A program made the translations under genes and the position numbers. From a virus, in the IMG/VR virus record IMGVR_UViG_3300025012_000122, positions 1-51,749 of that record: a DNA stretch of 51,749 bases, one strand, 5' to 3'. Below the pieces are notes generated by a model. That model was not told where the DNA came from, made no database searches, and worked only from the letters and a program-made list of their open reading frames with translations. Shown piece after piece: positions 7,685-15,753 of the stretch (position 1 is its first letter; the number at the start of each line of letters is the position of its first letter).

Positions 7685-8839
7685 ATGGCAAAACGACCAA
7701 GCATGAGGGATAGGGTAAAAGAAGCAGCGGCTAAACAGGCTTCCGGCGGCGCAGCGTATATCAAGTTGCCGGACGGAGCCAAAGCCAAGTTCTTCCAGCC
7801 GAAAGCGCAGGAATACGAACTGGACTTCCTCCCCTACGAAGTCACCATCAAGAATCACCCCGAAGGTCTGAACCCCGGCGATTTGTGGTACAAGAGGGAT
7901 ATCAAGGTTCACTACAACATCGGCGCAGAGGAGAAGTCCTACATCTGCCCCCGTACCATCGGCCTCCCTTGCCCCATTTGCGAGGCTCACAAGGTACTGG
8001 CAAAAGACCCCTCTGCCACCGAGGAAGAAGTAAAGGCTCTGCAACCCAAGGACCGCACCATCTTTCAGGTGATAGACCTGAGCGACGAATCGGGAACCGT
8101 TCAGCTTTTCGAGTACAGCCACCACCTGTTCAACAAGAAGCTTTTGCTTGAGATCAACAAGACCGAGAACGGCGCAGGAAGCACACGTCGCCGTAAGACG
8201 GTTCATGCAGGTTTCGCGGATCTGGACGAGGGACAAACCCTTATCGCATCCTTCCAAGAGAAGTCGATGGGCAAGAACAAGTTCTACGAGTGCGACCGCA
8301 TCGATGCTGATGACAGGGACGCTTACGGTGAGGAGATTCTGGACGAAGTTCTGGACCTCGATAGCATCATCGAAATCCTCCCTTACGACAAGCTGGAAGC
8401 AATCTTCCTTGCTATCGCAGGAGCCGATAAAGAGGACAAGGAAGAGAAACCCGCAGGGCGCAGAGGACGCGCAGCGAAGGAAGAAGAACCTGAACCGGAG
8501 AAAGAAGAAAAACCGGCAAGGCGTGGCCGTGGTGCGGCTAAGGAAGAGGAGCCGGAACCCGCCAAAGAAGAAACCGGACGGCGCAGACGTGGTGCTGCTG
8601 AACCTGAACCCAAAGAGGAAGAGAAACCCGCAGGACGTAGGGGTCGCGGAGCCGCCAAGGAGGAGCCGAAAGAAGAGGAACCGGCACCTTCCGGCAGACG
8701 TACACGCGGAGCGGCCAAGGAAGAAAACCCTTGCCCCCACAAGCTGAAATTCGGTGAGGATCACGAAACGCAGGATTGCTGCATCGACACTTGCCCCGAA
8801 GAAGTTTGGGAGAAGTGCAAAGCGGCAAGCGAAGCCTAA
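7685..8839 (+). CDS. gp32-like single-stranded DNA-binding protein with low-complexity tail
   Basis: A 384-residue protein proposed to coat ssDNA during replication and recombination. The core contains a probable zinc site H76-x11-C88-x7-C96-x2-C99 (the SYICPRTIGLPCPIC region), close in spacing to the zinc site of T4 gp32 (H-x12-C-x9-C-x2-C). After the core (~residue 245) is a ~105-residue repetitive segment of alternating acidic KEEEPEP and basic GRRGRGAAKE blocks. The last 35 residues hold a second Cys/His cluster (CPHKLKFGEDHETQDCC...C...C). The start at ATG 7685 is 11 bases from AAGGAG; an upstream TTG at 7676 is too close to it. A strong terminator follows. The acidic tail is where such proteins usually contact their partners. 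Confidence 0.8.
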   Translation: MAKRPSMRDRVKEAAAKQASGGAAYIKLPDGAKAKFFQPKAQEYELDFLPYEVTIKNHPEGLNPGDLWYKRDIKVHYNIGAEEKSYICPRTIGLPCPICEAHKVLAKDPSATEEEVKALQPKDRTIFQVIDLSDESGTVQLFEYSHHLFNKKLLLEINKTENGAGSTRRRKTVHAGFADLDEGQTLIASFQEKSMGKNKFYECDRIDADDRDAYGEEILDEVLDLDSIIEILPYDKLEAIFLAIAGADKEDKEEKPAGRRGRAAKEEEPEPEKEEKPARRGRGAAKEEEPEPAKEETGRRRRGAAEPEPKEEEKPAGRRGRGAAKEEPKEEEPAPSGRRTRGAAKEENPCPHKLKFGEDHETQDCCIDTCPEEVWEKCKAASEA

Positions 8840-8868
8840 CACCTTCCACTTAACATCCAACGTCTCAC

Positions 8869-8910
8869 AAGGCGGGTTAGCGATTGATATCCTGACCCGC
8901 CTTATTTCAT
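8869..8910 (+). terminator. Rho-independent terminator after the ssDNA-binding protein
   Basis: Stem AAGGCGGGTTAG (8869-8880) pairs with CTGACCCGCCTT (8892-8903) with one mismatch (G-T type), an 11-base loop, then TTATTTCATT. It separates the highly expressed ssDNA-binding gene from the recombinase genes. Confidence 0.8.
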
Positions 8911-8923
8911 TTATGAGGTAACT

Positions 8924-9223
8924 ATGGAGGTACCCCGAACAAACGCACCGCCTACGATATCAATCAAACGTGCAGTCGAGATTGCTGAACAGGAATTCGG
9001 CATAACGGTAAGGCACAAGAAGATGATTGAGTGGGTAGAGTTGCACGACTGTTGCTATCAACCCGGAGGGGTAGGTGGTAAAATCTACGTAGTGGAAGAG
9101 TTATTCAGGAGGATTTTTAATGGCAAGAACGTCAAACAAACCCAAAGCAGCAAGCAAACCCCCATTGAAGGAACAGATAATAGCGAGGTCAAGAAAGCCG
9201 GTAGAGGTCGCAAAAGAAGATAA
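8924..9223 (+). CDS. Small predicted DNA-binding protein overlapping the recombinase gene (99 aa)
   Basis: The ATG at 8924 has GAGG upstream (8914-8917). Residues ~12-65 look like a winged-helix or MerR-like unit: a helix ISIKRAVEIAEQEFG, a second helix HKKMIEWVELHD, then a hairpin GGKIYVVEELFRRIF. The tail is hydrophilic, ending in the basic GRGRKRR. The last 104 bases are read in another frame as the start of the RecA-like gene, whose ribosome binding site (GGAGG near 9109) lies inside this gene. Most of the overlap encodes the low-complexity tail here and the basic N-terminus there. Possibly a regulator or recombination accessory factor. Confidence 0.65.
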   Translation: MEVPRTNAPPTISIKRAVEIAEQEFGITVRHKKMIEWVELHDCCYQPGGVGGKIYVVEELFRRIFNGKNVKQTQSSKQTPIEGTDNSEVKKAGRGRKRR

Positions 9224-12047: not shown

Positions 12048-13244
12048 GTGAACGAGCATATAACACAGATACACATTCGTAACTTCCAAAGCCACCGCGA
12101 CACCCTTATAAGGCTGAAACCGGGGGTTAATGCTATCGTGGGTTTGTCGGACGCCGGGAAATCTGCCGTACTCAGGGCCACCGGACTTGTGCTCGCGAAT
12201 AGCGGCCTGGATCAATCTCGTTGGGGCGGGGTGACAGACGTTGAAGTTACCTTTGCGGACGGTAACGTAGTAAGCAGAACAGCCGACCCGAAAAACAAAT
12301 ACTACCTGCTGAACGACGATGTTGATAACGTCTATGAGAATGTGGTCAAGGACGGTATGCCTACCGACATTGCCGAAGTCATTAACATGGACGAAATCAA
12401 TATCAGCCGTCAAATGGACCTTCCATTCCTTCTCGGGGAAACGGCGGGGCAGGTAGCCAAGACTCTGAACAAATGCTGTAATCTGGAAATCATAGATACA
12501 ACTATCAAAGCAATAAAGGGAACAGCCTCACGTAACAAAGATGATATCAACGTAGCTACCGCGCAGTTATCGGAACTGGAAGAACAGAAAGCTTCTTTCG
12601 CTTTTCTTAAACAGATGGAGGAGGACGTAAATGAATATGAACTTTTGGTACAAAGTAGTGATCGGCTTGAACGTGACATGTTATCTCTCGATTCTCTTCT
12701 GTTGCTTCTTGGAACACAGAAGGAAGAAGAAAGAGAACTTTCCACCCTTCTCCAATCGGAAGCTGATATCAACGAAGCGTTTGCCAAAATCGAGACTCAA
12801 AAAGTCTTATCACAGGAGATTTTCTCACTCACAGGAATAATAGCTGCAATAGAGCGTGATCTATCAGAATTACAAGCTCTGAATTCGCTCTTAGAGGCTG
12901 AAATGCAACTGAACGAAGCCCTTTCCTTGCTTGAAGAGGTTGAACCGCTAAATAGTGCCATTTCGGGCCTTAATCAGCTACTCATGGCTATTGAGGGTGA
13001 CGAAGACGATGCGGCACAGATTATGGACCTGTTACAAGCGGAACCTCTGGTAAATGACGCCCTGAAATTGATCGAACAACGGGAGGTAATTCAAAAAGAG
13101 GGGCAAGGGTTGTTGAACCTGATAACAGCGATTGAAAAACAACAAAAGCAAAAAGCGAGTCTGGAAGAACAGATCACAGATAGAGAAATCGAATTCAACA
13201 AAGCCATGCCGGATACGTGTCCGTTATGCGGGGAGAGGCCATGA
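12048..13244 (+). CDS. SbcC/Rad50-like ATPase, N-terminal half ending at the zinc hook
   Basis: A 398-residue protein (GTG start at 12048, AAGGAGG just upstream). It contains an ABC-ATPase N-lobe: IRNFQSHRDT, Walker A GLSDAGKS at 32-39, and a Q-loop-like RQMDLPFLL. A long coiled coil follows from ~170, with three repeats of ~47 residues (each with an LLQ/LLE-E-A-x-x-N-E/D-A-L core). It ends in DTCPLCGERP: the CxxC of a Rad50 zinc hook lies four residues from the stop. The second coiled-coil arm, signature motif and Walker B are missing here and are found at 15133-15753, so the protein is split in two at the hook. The stop overlaps the nuclease start (ATGA). Confidence 0.88.
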   Translation: MNEHITQIHIRNFQSHRDTLIRLKPGVNAIVGLSDAGKSAVLRATGLVLANSGLDQSRWGGVTDVEVTFADGNVVSRTADPKNKYYLLNDDVDNVYENVVKDGMPTDIAEVINMDEINISRQMDLPFLLGETAGQVAKTLNKCCNLEIIDTTIKAIKGTASRNKDDINVATAQLSELEEQKASFAFLKQMEEDVNEYELLVQSSDRLERDMLSLDSLLLLLGTQKEEERELSTLLQSEADINEAFAKIETQKVLSQEIFSLTGIIAAIERDLSELQALNSLLEAEMQLNEALSLLEEVEPLNSAISGLNQLLMAIEGDEDDAAQIMDLLQAEPLVNDALKLIEQREVIQKEGQGLLNLITAIEKQQKQKASLEEQITDREIEFNKAMPDTCPLCGERP

Positions 13245-14155
13245 AAAGAGTTGATGCTATCCTGTGTGCCGATTTACACATAAGAGAAGATTCGCCCGTA
13301 TGCCGTACTGATAACTTCTTTGAAGCACAGACACGGAAGCTTGAATTTATTTCAAAGCTACAAAAGAAATACGATTGTCCGGTGCTTTGCGCGGGAGACG
13401 TTTTCGACAAATGGAAAAATTCCCCCTTCTTGCTTTCTTATGCTATACGTAACCTCCCCGACAACATGATTGCCGTGGCTGGAAACCATGACCTTGCTTC
13501 GCACAGTATGGAGAACTTACACCGAAGCAGCATAGACGTGTTAGCCGCTGCTGGTAAGCTCAGACTTCTTAACGACGAGGACGATATTGATTGTGGTTCT
13601 TTCGTTGTGTGTGGGTTTCCGTGGGGATCTGAACTGGAAGGGATCGATTCAGACTTTATTCACGAGTCGGGTCAAAAGACAGTTGCGCTAATGCACTACT
13701 TAGTTTATCAGAATGAACCACCATTCCCCGGTGCTGAGAAGCATGGGGGTAACGCTAAAACTATTCTGAGGAAGATGAAGGGGTTTGATTTGATAGTAAG
13801 TGGTGACTGTCATCAAACTTGCGTTGAGCGTGTAGGTAACAGAGCTTTGGTGAATTCGGGAAGTCTTATGCGGACTACCGCAGCGCAGGTTGATTATGTA
13901 CCACAAGTGTTTCTTTGGAATGCCGCAACCAATGAAATAGAAGGTGTGAATCTTCCGTGCGAAAGTAATGTTGTCAGTAGGGAACACATAGAGATTAAGA
14001 AGCAACGGGACGATAGGATAGAATCCTTTGTCTCCAATCTCAAACAAAATGTCGAGGTCGGGCTTTCGTTCAGTGATAACATTTCTAAAAGAATAGCAGC
14101 AGACAACATAAGTAAACCTGTTCAGAAGTTAATCTATACAGCTATGGGGGTTTGA
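13241..14155 (+). CDS. SbcD/Mre11-like nuclease (metallophosphoesterase)
   Basis: The nuclease partner of the SbcC/Rad50-like ATPase, 304 residues. It has the metal-binding motifs in order: ADLHI (D11, H13), AGDVFDKW (D53), GNHD (82-84), LMHYLV (H152) and SGDCH (H191). The last is G-D-x-H instead of the usual G-H-x-H, so one histidine ligand is replaced by aspartate. The ~100-residue C-terminal region would cap the nuclease and bind the coiled-coil base of the ATPase. The start overlaps the ATPase stop by 4 bases, so the two are translated together. In T4 the equivalent pair is gp46/gp47. Confidence 0.9.
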   Translation: MKRVDAILCADLHIREDSPVCRTDNFFEAQTRKLEFISKLQKKYDCPVLCAGDVFDKWKNSPFLLSYAIRNLPDNMIAVAGNHDLASHSMENLHRSSIDVLAAAGKLRLLNDEDDIDCGSFVVCGFPWGSELEGIDSDFIHESGQKTVALMHYLVYQNEPPFPGAEKHGGNAKTILRKMKGFDLIVSGDCHQTCVERVGNRALVNSGSLMRTTAAQVDYVPQVFLWNAATNEIEGVNLPCESNVVSREHIEIKKQRDDRIESFVSNLKQNVEVGLSFSDNISKRIAADNISKPVQKLIYTAMGV

Positions 14156-14156
14156 C

Positions 14157-14333
14157 ATGGAACAGAAAAAAGTTACAGCTAAAGGTGTCATGGGATACGC
14201 ATACGCAAAAGACCTTGAAGAAGCAATGTTGATTGGGTTGAATTGGGAGTATCCTGAAATTACCTTTGACGGTAAGGATTACGTTCTGTTTGACGGCAAA
14301 TACAGGGAGGTTGTCCAGAATGCCAAAAGCTGA
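14157..14333 (+). CDS. Small hypothetical protein (58 aa)
   Basis: A short gene directly after the nuclease stop (ATG 14157), translating to a 58-residue protein beginning MEQKKVTAKGVMGYAYA, with an acidic middle (DLEEAMLIGLNWEYPE) and a beta-hairpin FDGKDYVLFDGKYREVV. It fills an otherwise unexplained 164-base stretch, has the same base composition as its neighbours and overlaps the next start by 14 bases, which all favour a real gene. Function unknown. Confidence 0.6.
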   Translation: MEQKKVTAKGVMGYAYAKDLEEAMLIGLNWEYPEITFDGKDYVLFDGKYREVVQNAKS

Positions 14334-14787
14334 AACCAAGTTTGATATCAAGATGGAGGACAAGTCTTTTACAAAGTATTGGTGTGAGGGTCCAAGTATT
14401 CTTTACGTTATGGACGGTGTTGAAGCAATCATTACCGCACCGAACGTCAAGGAACTTGGTATCATTTGGCGCAAGCTTACCGGCAGTGATTTACCTGAAC
14501 GTGACGTTATCATTATGGTTCTTGGCTCCCGTAAGAACGTAAAAGCTACGGAAGTCGAGCCCGCACAAACGGGTAACTTTAGTTTGGTGTGGGTTTATCA
14601 CGACCCGTCAGACTGCGTGTTTGTGGACATACGCGCTAAGGTGGATGGTGTTGATCTTAAAGAAATAGGACCGGCTGTAACCTTCACTACCTTAGAAGCT
14701 AAAAAGGCTTTGATGTTAAAAGGTTGGAGTAGAGAAGACGTAAGAGAAGTAGAAATAAGGGAGGGTTACGATGAAATCCCGTTCTGA
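14320..14787 (+). CDS. Conserved hypothetical protein (155 aa)
   Basis: ATG 14320, with AGGGAGG about 10 bases upstream. Mostly beta-rich in the first two thirds (SILYVMDGVEAIIT; VIIMVLGS; FSLVWVYHD), with a helical C-terminus (LEAKKALMLKGWSREDVREVE). I do not recognise it. It lies inside the split SbcCD-like cluster, between the nuclease and the C-terminal ATPase half, so a role linked to that complex is possible but unproven. It overlaps the next small gene by 17 bases. Confidence 0.65.
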   Translation: MPKAETKFDIKMEDKSFTKYWCEGPSILYVMDGVEAIITAPNVKELGIIWRKLTGSDLPERDVIIMVLGSRKNVKATEVEPAQTGNFSLVWVYHDPSDCVFVDIRAKVDGVDLKEIGPAVTFTTLEAKKALMLKGWSREDVREVEIREGYDEIPF

Positions 14788-14899
14788 TGAAAAGAAAAGT
14801 CTTTGTCTTACCTGTACCAACCACTGTCTGTTTAAGAAAGAGAACATTGCTGACAATACAAACATTCAAAAGTGTGATGCTTATATCAAAGGAGAATAA
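14771..14899 (+). CDS. Mini cysteine-rich protein (42 aa)
   Basis: ATG 14771, behind AGGGAGG at 14759-14765, encodes 42 residues beginning MKSRSDEKKSLCLTC. Four cysteines (C12, C15, C19 and C35) and H18 make a likely zinc-binding site. It fills the space between the preceding gene and the coiled-coil gene. A different-frame extension of the downstream gene covers the same bases but has no ribosome binding site. Function unknown; a small zinc-binding accessory protein is the simplest guess. Confidence 0.5.
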   Translation: MKSRSDEKKSLCLTCTNHCLFKKENIADNTNIQKCDAYIKGE

Positions 14900-14903
14900 A
14901 AAC

Positions 14904-15143
14904 ATGGCGACTGCAACCGAAAGACTTTTAAAGATGAAAGACGAGTTATCAAAATGCAAAATAGACAAGGCTGAAATCGACGGTGCTATCAAGCAGAACA
15001 TGGAGCGTCTGAAAACGGAATTCTCTTGCGGTTCTTTGGAGAGGGGTAAAAGTAAACTCAATCTCCTGAAGGAAAAGAAAACCAAGCTTGACGAACAGAT
15101 CGAGGACGCAGTTAACAAACTGGAAAACTCTTATGTCTGGTAG
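14904..15143 (+). CDS. Small coiled-coil protein, probable SbcC/Rad50-associated (79 aa)
   Basis: ATG 14904 follows AAAGGAG (14888-14894). The 79-residue protein is almost entirely helical: a first helix TERLLKMKDELSKCKIDKAEIDG, a middle LKTEFSCGSLERG loop, then a second helix LLKEKKTKLDEQIEDAVNKLE. I associate this pattern with short genes found next to phage genes for the C-terminal half of Rad50-like ATPases. It overlaps that gene by 11 bases. It may pair with the ATPase coiled coil or bridge its two halves (inference). Confidence 0.7.
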   Translation: MATATERLLKMKDELSKCKIDKAEIDGAIKQNMERLKTEFSCGSLERGKSKLNLLKEKKTKLDEQIEDAVNKLENSYVW

Positions 15144-15753
15144 AAACTATCGACAAATTCTCGAAAGACGTAAGGGACAACTAGAACAGTGTGAAGGTAT
15201 GATAACCAACACACTGAACAACCTCAACCGGTTACAAACAGAACAACACGAAATCGAACAGGCACAAGCTGTTATCATGGAAACGGCGCAACAAACCCAA
15301 CAGCAATTAGAGTTTCACATAAGCAACCTTGTGTCACTTGCACAAGCAGCAGTGTTTGACGATCCTTACACCTGTCAGATAGAGTTTGTGCAACGCCGCA
15401 ACCAAACGGAGTGCGATATCTCTCTGGTAAGAAACGGCGCTAAGGTAGAAGATCCGTTGAACGGTGCGGGAGGGGGTGCTTGCGACGTGGCGGGGTTTGG
15501 CTTGAGGGTTGCCCTTTGGAGCCTGAAACGACCCCATACGAGGCCGATCTTAGTATTGGACGAACCTATGCGTCACCTTAAAGGGAAGGAGGCTAATATA
15601 AGGGCTATTCAAATGATTAAGCAGGTAGCCGACAAGTTAGGTCTTCAAATCATCATGGTTGCGGACGAGCGTGTACCCTTATCTGAAATTGAACAAGGTG
15701 CGGATAATGTTATCACAATAGGAATTAAAGGAGGTGTTAGTTATGTCGTATGA
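15133..15753 (+). CDS. SbcC/Rad50-like ATPase, C-terminal half
   Basis: A 206-residue protein that completes the split Rad50. The N-terminal ~85 residues are coiled coil (LERRKGQLEQCEG onward, Gln-rich). Then comes the C-lobe of an ABC ATPase: the signature region NGAGGGACDVAGFGLRVALW, Walker B PILVLDEPM (catalytic E), the D-loop region RHLKGKEA and the IIMVADE strand where the switch histidine of other family members is replaced. It cannot bind ATP alone because Walker A is in the gene at 12048. The start at ATG 15133 overlaps the previous gene; no clear ribosome binding site, so coupling is likely. No cysteine pair for a second half-hook is visible. Confidence 0.88.
   Translation: MSGRNYRQILERRKGQLEQCEGMITNTLNNLNRLQTEQHEIEQAQAVIMETAQQTQQQLEFHISNLVSLAQAAVFDDPYTCQIEFVQRRNQTECDISLVRNGAKVEDPLNGAGGGACDVAGFGLRVALWSLKRPHTRPILVLDEPMRHLKGKEANIRAIQMIKQVADKLGLQIIMVADERVPLSEIEQGADNVITIGIKGGVSYVV

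Follow-up and report, generated by a model that had tools for sequence, protein, structure and literature searches.

A virus genome of 51,749 nucleotides, IMG/VR record IMGVR_UViG_3300025012_000122 (hereafter the window, meaning the whole 51.7-kb stretch analysed), appears to encode its Rad50 (SbcC) in pieces. With a probability of about 0.8, we propose that this Rad50 is made as separate polypeptides that act in trans with Mre11 (SbcD), and that a small coiled-coil protein, here called S, is the middle piece of its return arm. One gene, the N-half, supplies lobe I of the ATPase and an outgoing arm that ends midway through the zinc hook, and a second, the C-half, the end of the return arm and lobe II, as judged from motifs and predicted structures. 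An earlier sequence-only reading of the window had proposed a Rad50/SbcC in two parts that meet at the zinc hook, the nuclease gene lying between them, and that proposal is upheld by motifs, profile matches, models and a conserved break point. The split, the break point, the identity of the lobes, the conservation of S and the fusions described below are all drawn from sequence and from AlphaFold2 models of single chains.

Each half carries its own set of Rad50 features. The N-half, 398 residues read from a GTG start with GGAGG upstream, has a Walker A motif (GLSDAGKS, from residue 32), a Q-loop (ISRQ at 119) and a sole CxxC at 391-394, its chain ending in CPLCGERP, and its profile matches Rad50 N-lobes (5f3w at 9e-21). 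Its model, with a predicted local distance difference test score (pLDDT) of 79.6 overall and lower values in the distal arm, consists of a lobe, helices at 146-183 and 185-330, a break near 331-334, a further helix at 335-386 and a flexible hook, and is matched by Foldseek to 1ii8_A, 3qkr_A, 9a9j_A and 1f2t_A. In the C-half the signature region reads GGG (residues 113-115) and the Walker B motif, at 140, LVLDEP; the C-half profile matches Rad50 C-lobes (3qkr_B at 6e-18), and the C-half model (pLDDT 92), a single helix from 2 to 74 followed by the lobe, finds 3qkr_B, 1f2t_B, 1ii8_B and 9a9j_B. Against Rad50 chains both halves reach a Foldseek probability of 1.00, with template modelling scores (TM-scores) against the P. 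furiosus lobe chains of 0.45-0.75, varying with the target. In these P. furiosus entries (1f2t, 1ii8, 3qkr and 9a9j) the lobes were placed on separate chains by the crystallographers' design. The constructs 1f2t, 1ii8 and 3qkr, whose A and B chains are matched by the phage N- and C-halves respectively, are man-made with truncated arms, whereas the phage version is natural, retains arm and hook, and adds S. That the two genes are instead unrelated, each a partial ATPase (a decaying or an independent RecF/SMC-like protein) rather than half of one enzyme, is suggested by their shortness and by their separate annotation as 'exonuclease' and 'ATPase'; yet their motifs and Foldseek chains are complementary, the halves co-occur wherever contigs allow, and N- and C-lobes are elsewhere fused with Mre11 in one armless chain, leaving this a very improbable explanation.

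Those armless fusions are the strongest link between the two halves that sequence provides. In three genomes (L145:2764-4818, L146:3652-5754 and L147:3583-5670) Mre11, N-lobe and C-lobe form a single chain of ~690 residues, and neither a CxxC nor S was found in these loci. Mre11 is also fused to the N-half in plasmids, and in locus L034 (L034:7062-9377) Mre11, N-half, hook and a 134-residue post-hook arm make up one 771-residue chain beside a separate C-half. No separate S was found in L034, and a search for further relatives of its fusion returned none. In all standard loci the arms have separate genes, and only the armless L145-L147 combine both lobes in one chain. Taken together, the Mre11 and N-half fusions, L034 and the armless chains support the existence of one complex.

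The position of the break is precise. When a profile built from the ~84 C-terminal residues of the N-halves was compared with the whole PDB, the best match was the P. furiosus zinc hook 1l8d, followed by 6zff and E. coli SbcC, and the match to 1l8d ends just past CPxC, halfway through the zinc-hook domain. Every one of the 50 non-redundant N-halves stops 2-16 residues past its CxxC. From the want of a cysteine pair on the C-half, the sequence-only reading had concluded that the hook must work differently. The C-half does lack a CxxC, having single cysteines at 20, 81, 94 and 117, but canonical chains likewise carry one mid-chain CxxC each (T4 gp46 at 288 of 560, E. coli SbcC at 506 of 1048) and the Rad50 zinc site is common to two chains (PMC5093744), so a second pair on the C-half is not expected and the conclusion falls away. 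By this measure the N-half carries the same hook equipment as one canonical Rad50 chain. A homodimer through the N-half, which had been offered as an unusual solution, is the ordinary Rad50 mode. Isolated CPVC hook peptides need only 4 residues to dimerise on zinc (logK12 14.9), and peptides of 8-14 residues reach 17.8-19.2, against 20.7 for 45 residues (PMC5093744); thus a hook without its return strand can still close, and a free-ended hook is chemically plausible. The other hook partner that had been suggested, a 42-residue cysteine protein encoded between the halves, was rejected, as no homologue was found in other loci of the split-Rad50 family.

The zinc site could also be closed inside a single N-half tail by extra cysteines or histidines (CPLC...H.H, CPLC...GGGC), so that no hooking would take place. 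Such residues are enriched in the tails (10.9% vs 2.7% background; at least one in 27 of 50), and in many relatives they may alter the zinc site. The clade of the window, however, with tails such as CPLCGERP, CPLCGGQP, CPLCGGEA and CPLCGK, has no further Cys/His ligand and still keeps CPLC, and we regard a tail-closed site as improbable.

The same split recurs in phages (Bacillus phage vB_BboS-125, Microcystis phage Mvi-JY20 and an uncultured 485-kb phage), in prophages or integrated elements of Sutcliffiella, Paenibacillus and Brevibacillus, and in complete plasmids of Paenibacillus, Geobacillus and Alkaliphilus, while plasmids of Aneurinibacillus and B. velezensis have the same gene order; the homologues with conserved order that the sequence-only reading had suggested looking for thus exist. 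Giant plasmids of Bacilli and Clostridia (L124-L128, 127-722 kb) also carry a split C-half, most of them with an N-half and the small coil; on the Jeotgalibacillus plasmid (L127) the C-half stands beside ribonucleotide reductase genes and the N-half is not nearby. Among 398 genomes sampled from one bacterial phylum, 66 contain a C-half, and at 66 of the 69 C-half places in that sample the open frame spans 314 residues or fewer. An order-level search found it in 1/39 genomes, so that carriage is patchy. In a tree of both lobes the split family stands apart from T4 gp46 and E. coli SbcC, the only two outgroups, with a support of 97.

An artefact of sequencing, assembly or splicing (a frameshift, intron or intein) has one genuine case in its favour: the N-half of L003, the closest relative (8001-9192), is interrupted by a real frameshift near 8429, either a contig error or a mutation. 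Set against it are dozens of independent genomes that share one break point, the intact genes between the halves, and the complete plasmids that carry the split; for the family this explanation is already refuted, and the sequencing or annotation break that the sequence-only reading had named as a danger is not borne out, the split recurring in independent isolates as well. An intron joining the halves was rejected, there being no Rfam intron match in the split region of the window. Insertion of a homing endonuclease was rejected as the cause of the split, for although HNH/AP2-type genes lie by the halves in L001, L003 and L013, most loci are without them; as an origin such an insertion is possible. 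In L003 two HNH/AP2-like homing endonuclease genes were observed, one (L003:9189-9803) beside the N-half and one (12429-13100) that overlaps the C-half at its 3' end; the latter, downstream gene ends like the 3' end of the window C-half, which also contains the ribosome-binding site of the next gene. We regard the arrangement, from its sequences, as a conserved class of split Rad50 and not a break. A literature search that was thin on subscription papers and preprints found no description of a split Rad50/SbcC, though one may exist.

The truly unusual features were missed by the sequence-only reading: a conserved S accompanies the C-half, and the return arm is nicked. Of 74 non-redundant loci with a C-half, at least 58 have S; many of the other 16 are cut by contig ends, have S farther off or, in L034, perhaps have it fused. 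It mostly measures 75-108 residues, lies directly upstream of the C-half in most loci, and was found in all 13 bacterial loci examined with a standalone C-half, and its independent counterparts on plasmids score 2e-7 to 1e-11 against the S profile. Coupling overlaps of -4 to -26 nucleotides join S and C-half in many loci (11 nucleotides in the window). We infer that S represents a portion of the Rad50 return arm that has become detached. The halves might instead form one head with S as a separate regulatory or loading subunit, bridging for example to a recombinase or clamp, its coiled coil a matter of chance. Such a role, which we think unlikely though deserving of attention, would suit the near-constant length of S while the N-arm ranges from 141 to 364 residues, the weak match of the L034 post-hook arm to S, and the jumbo-phage loci, where S lies ~0.5-1.2 kb from the C-half with an intervening gene. 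It sits poorly with the near-constant linkage and translational overlap of S with the C-half, with L034, which is without S yet has its long post-hook helix, and with the armless fusions, which have no CxxC and in whose loci no S was found. In the 485-kb phage LR745208 (L016:16732-18893) the gene between S and C-half is clamp-like, and a gap about as large is seen there in other jumbo loci.

The outgoing arm is built from repeats. In the window the N-arm (N-half residues 146-388, 12483-13211; ~242 residues long) consists of tandem ~47-residue repeats, with a periodicity score of 0.76 vs a shuffle maximum of 0.18, and across the family a significant period was detected in 32 of 49 N-arms, in most cases 47, 94 or 44. 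Walker A-to-hook distances across the family cluster at ~315-320, ~360, ~425 and ~475, that is, arm lengths are stepwise.

In the trans-assembled Rad50 that we favour, N- and C-halves would combine into one ATPase head, and two such heads would sandwich ATP in the usual way, while the CxxC motifs of two N-half C-termini would together hold one zinc, just as ordinary Rad50 does. S, often translationally coupled to the C-half, would lie as the detached middle of the return arm on the head-proximal N-arm. The return arm would then be gapped twice, past the hook and between S and C-half, and the N-arm would be the main path by which strain or signals pass from the hook to the head. Long versions have an N-arm extended by tandem ~47-residue repeats, without matching growth of S and C-half, and the whole would presumably work with Mre11 in phage recombination and DNA-end processing. 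More speculatively, and with a good deal less confidence, this may be an openable three-polypeptide Rad50, in which repeat-built N-half rods are joined by zinc at their free ends and S and C-half act as a detachable head-proximal clamp, with exchangeable heads, arms and hooks, and arm length tuned by gain and loss of repeats.

Several observations weigh against the trans-assembled reading. Structural support is limited to single-chain predictions, and the case for S as return arm comes from where it lies, how long it is and one weak match in a fusion: against the S profile the L034 tail scores 15.7 bits, where shuffles reach at most 7.0, but family N-arms score up to 15.1. S (~80 residues) and the C-half helix (~73) together give ~150 residues, which equals the N-arm only in its shortest versions (141-154), and the lengths of S and N-arm do not grow jointly (Spearman -0.51). 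An S that lengthens with the N-arm, as expected if S and C-half made a full return arm, was thus rejected, the trend being the opposite; because S and C-half do not follow N-arm length, any extra repeats would have to pair among themselves or with the arm of the partner. The head also departs from the canonical form. In 47/47 tree members the signature serine is replaced by glycine (GG[GA]), the remainder of the signature helix aligning without gaps, and in the window (C-half residues 175-181, MVADERV, 15655-15675) and its closest relatives the H-loop histidine is replaced, with a 4-residue insertion. Given these two changes, ATP chemistry may differ from that of canonical Rad50. The Walker B DE is invariant in the family and the H-loop histidine (TH) is kept in most members; an apparent arginine at the signature serine in Firmicutes members proved to be a misalignment, the correct change being Ser to Gly.

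With the Rad50/SbcC-Mre11/SbcD systems, including T4 gp46/gp47, the phage pieces have in common the ATPase lobes, the helical arm, the CPxC half-hook, the Walker A, Q-loop and Walker B motifs and a linked nuclease gene. The N-lobe Walker A and Q-loop, a single arm-tip CxxC, the head fold and the Mre11 partner were all found; the SGG(E/Q) signature and both arms in one chain were not. Unlike Rad50/SbcC, the phage arm is broken right past the CxxC and again before the C-half, an extra coiled coil of ~80 residues is present, the signature serine has become glycine, and the N-arm is lengthened by repeats of ~47 residues. SMC proteins (SMC, cohesin, condensin) have a similar ABC head on a coiled coil, but the phage family has a CxxC hook instead of a hinge, its best matches are Rad50 chains and its partner is Mre11; no SMC hinge was found in any of the pieces, and the N-half ends at its CxxC. 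The same three pieces are listed as unrelated families in PHROG, as 16465 (labelled 'exonuclease', misleadingly, as it is the ATPase N-half), 15167 ('ATPase') and 18563 (unknown), represented by gp32, gp35 and gp34 of Bacillus phage vB_BboS-125.

The window also encodes a DNA polymerase, clamp loader, portal, terminase and head genes. A block of recombination genes at 9-16 kb comprises a UvsX-like recombinase, a RuvC-like resolvase, a DNA ligase, the split Rad50, the Mre11-like nuclease and a dUTPase (Table 1). The Mre11-like protein matches Pfam Metallophos (6e-9) and the SbcD-like PHROG (4e-11), and its gene adjoins the split Rad50 in most of the loci whose flanks reach far enough. The genes of the split and the 1.9 kb between its halves are real and placed as the sequence-only reading had them, apart from a '153-aa' frame said to start at 14326, where the codon is AAA; ATG 14320, behind a GGAGG, is the likely start. 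This frame and its 58-residue neighbour were rejected as components, being present only in closest relatives.

Table 1. Genes of the split Rad50 region, in window coordinates
Feature	Position	Strand
Rad50 N-half: lobe I (Walker A 32-39, Q-loop ~122), ~240-residue helical arm, C-terminal half zinc hook DTCPLCGERP	12048..13244	+
Mre11/SbcD-like metallophosphoesterase nuclease; overlaps N-half by 4 nucleotides	13241..14155	+
58-residue open reading frame; counterpart only in closest relative L003; probably passenger	14157..14333	+
~155-residue open reading frame; related frames only in L003 and L009; probably passenger	14320..14787	+
42-residue cysteine-containing open reading frame; outside core, without homologue in other loci	14771..14899	+
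Small coiled-coil subunit S, 79 residues; putative separate piece of Rad50 return arm	14904..15143	+
Rad50 C-half: 73-residue arm helix and lobe II (GGG 113-115, Walker B LVLDEP, VADERV in H-loop)	15133..15753	+

How the hook communicates with ATPase and nuclease over tens of nanometres is an open question in Rad50, usually framed as propagation along a continuous antiparallel arm. A natural, widespread Rad50 with breaks in its return strand, one at the hook and one near the head, provides a test of whether a continuous arm is needed, and the natural series of gapped arms, length steps of ~47 residues and armless chains lets arm continuity, arm length and hook vary independently. Three PHROG families can be re-annotated as pieces of one machine, a Rad50 that gene-by-gene annotation has missed in many phages, prophages and plasmids.

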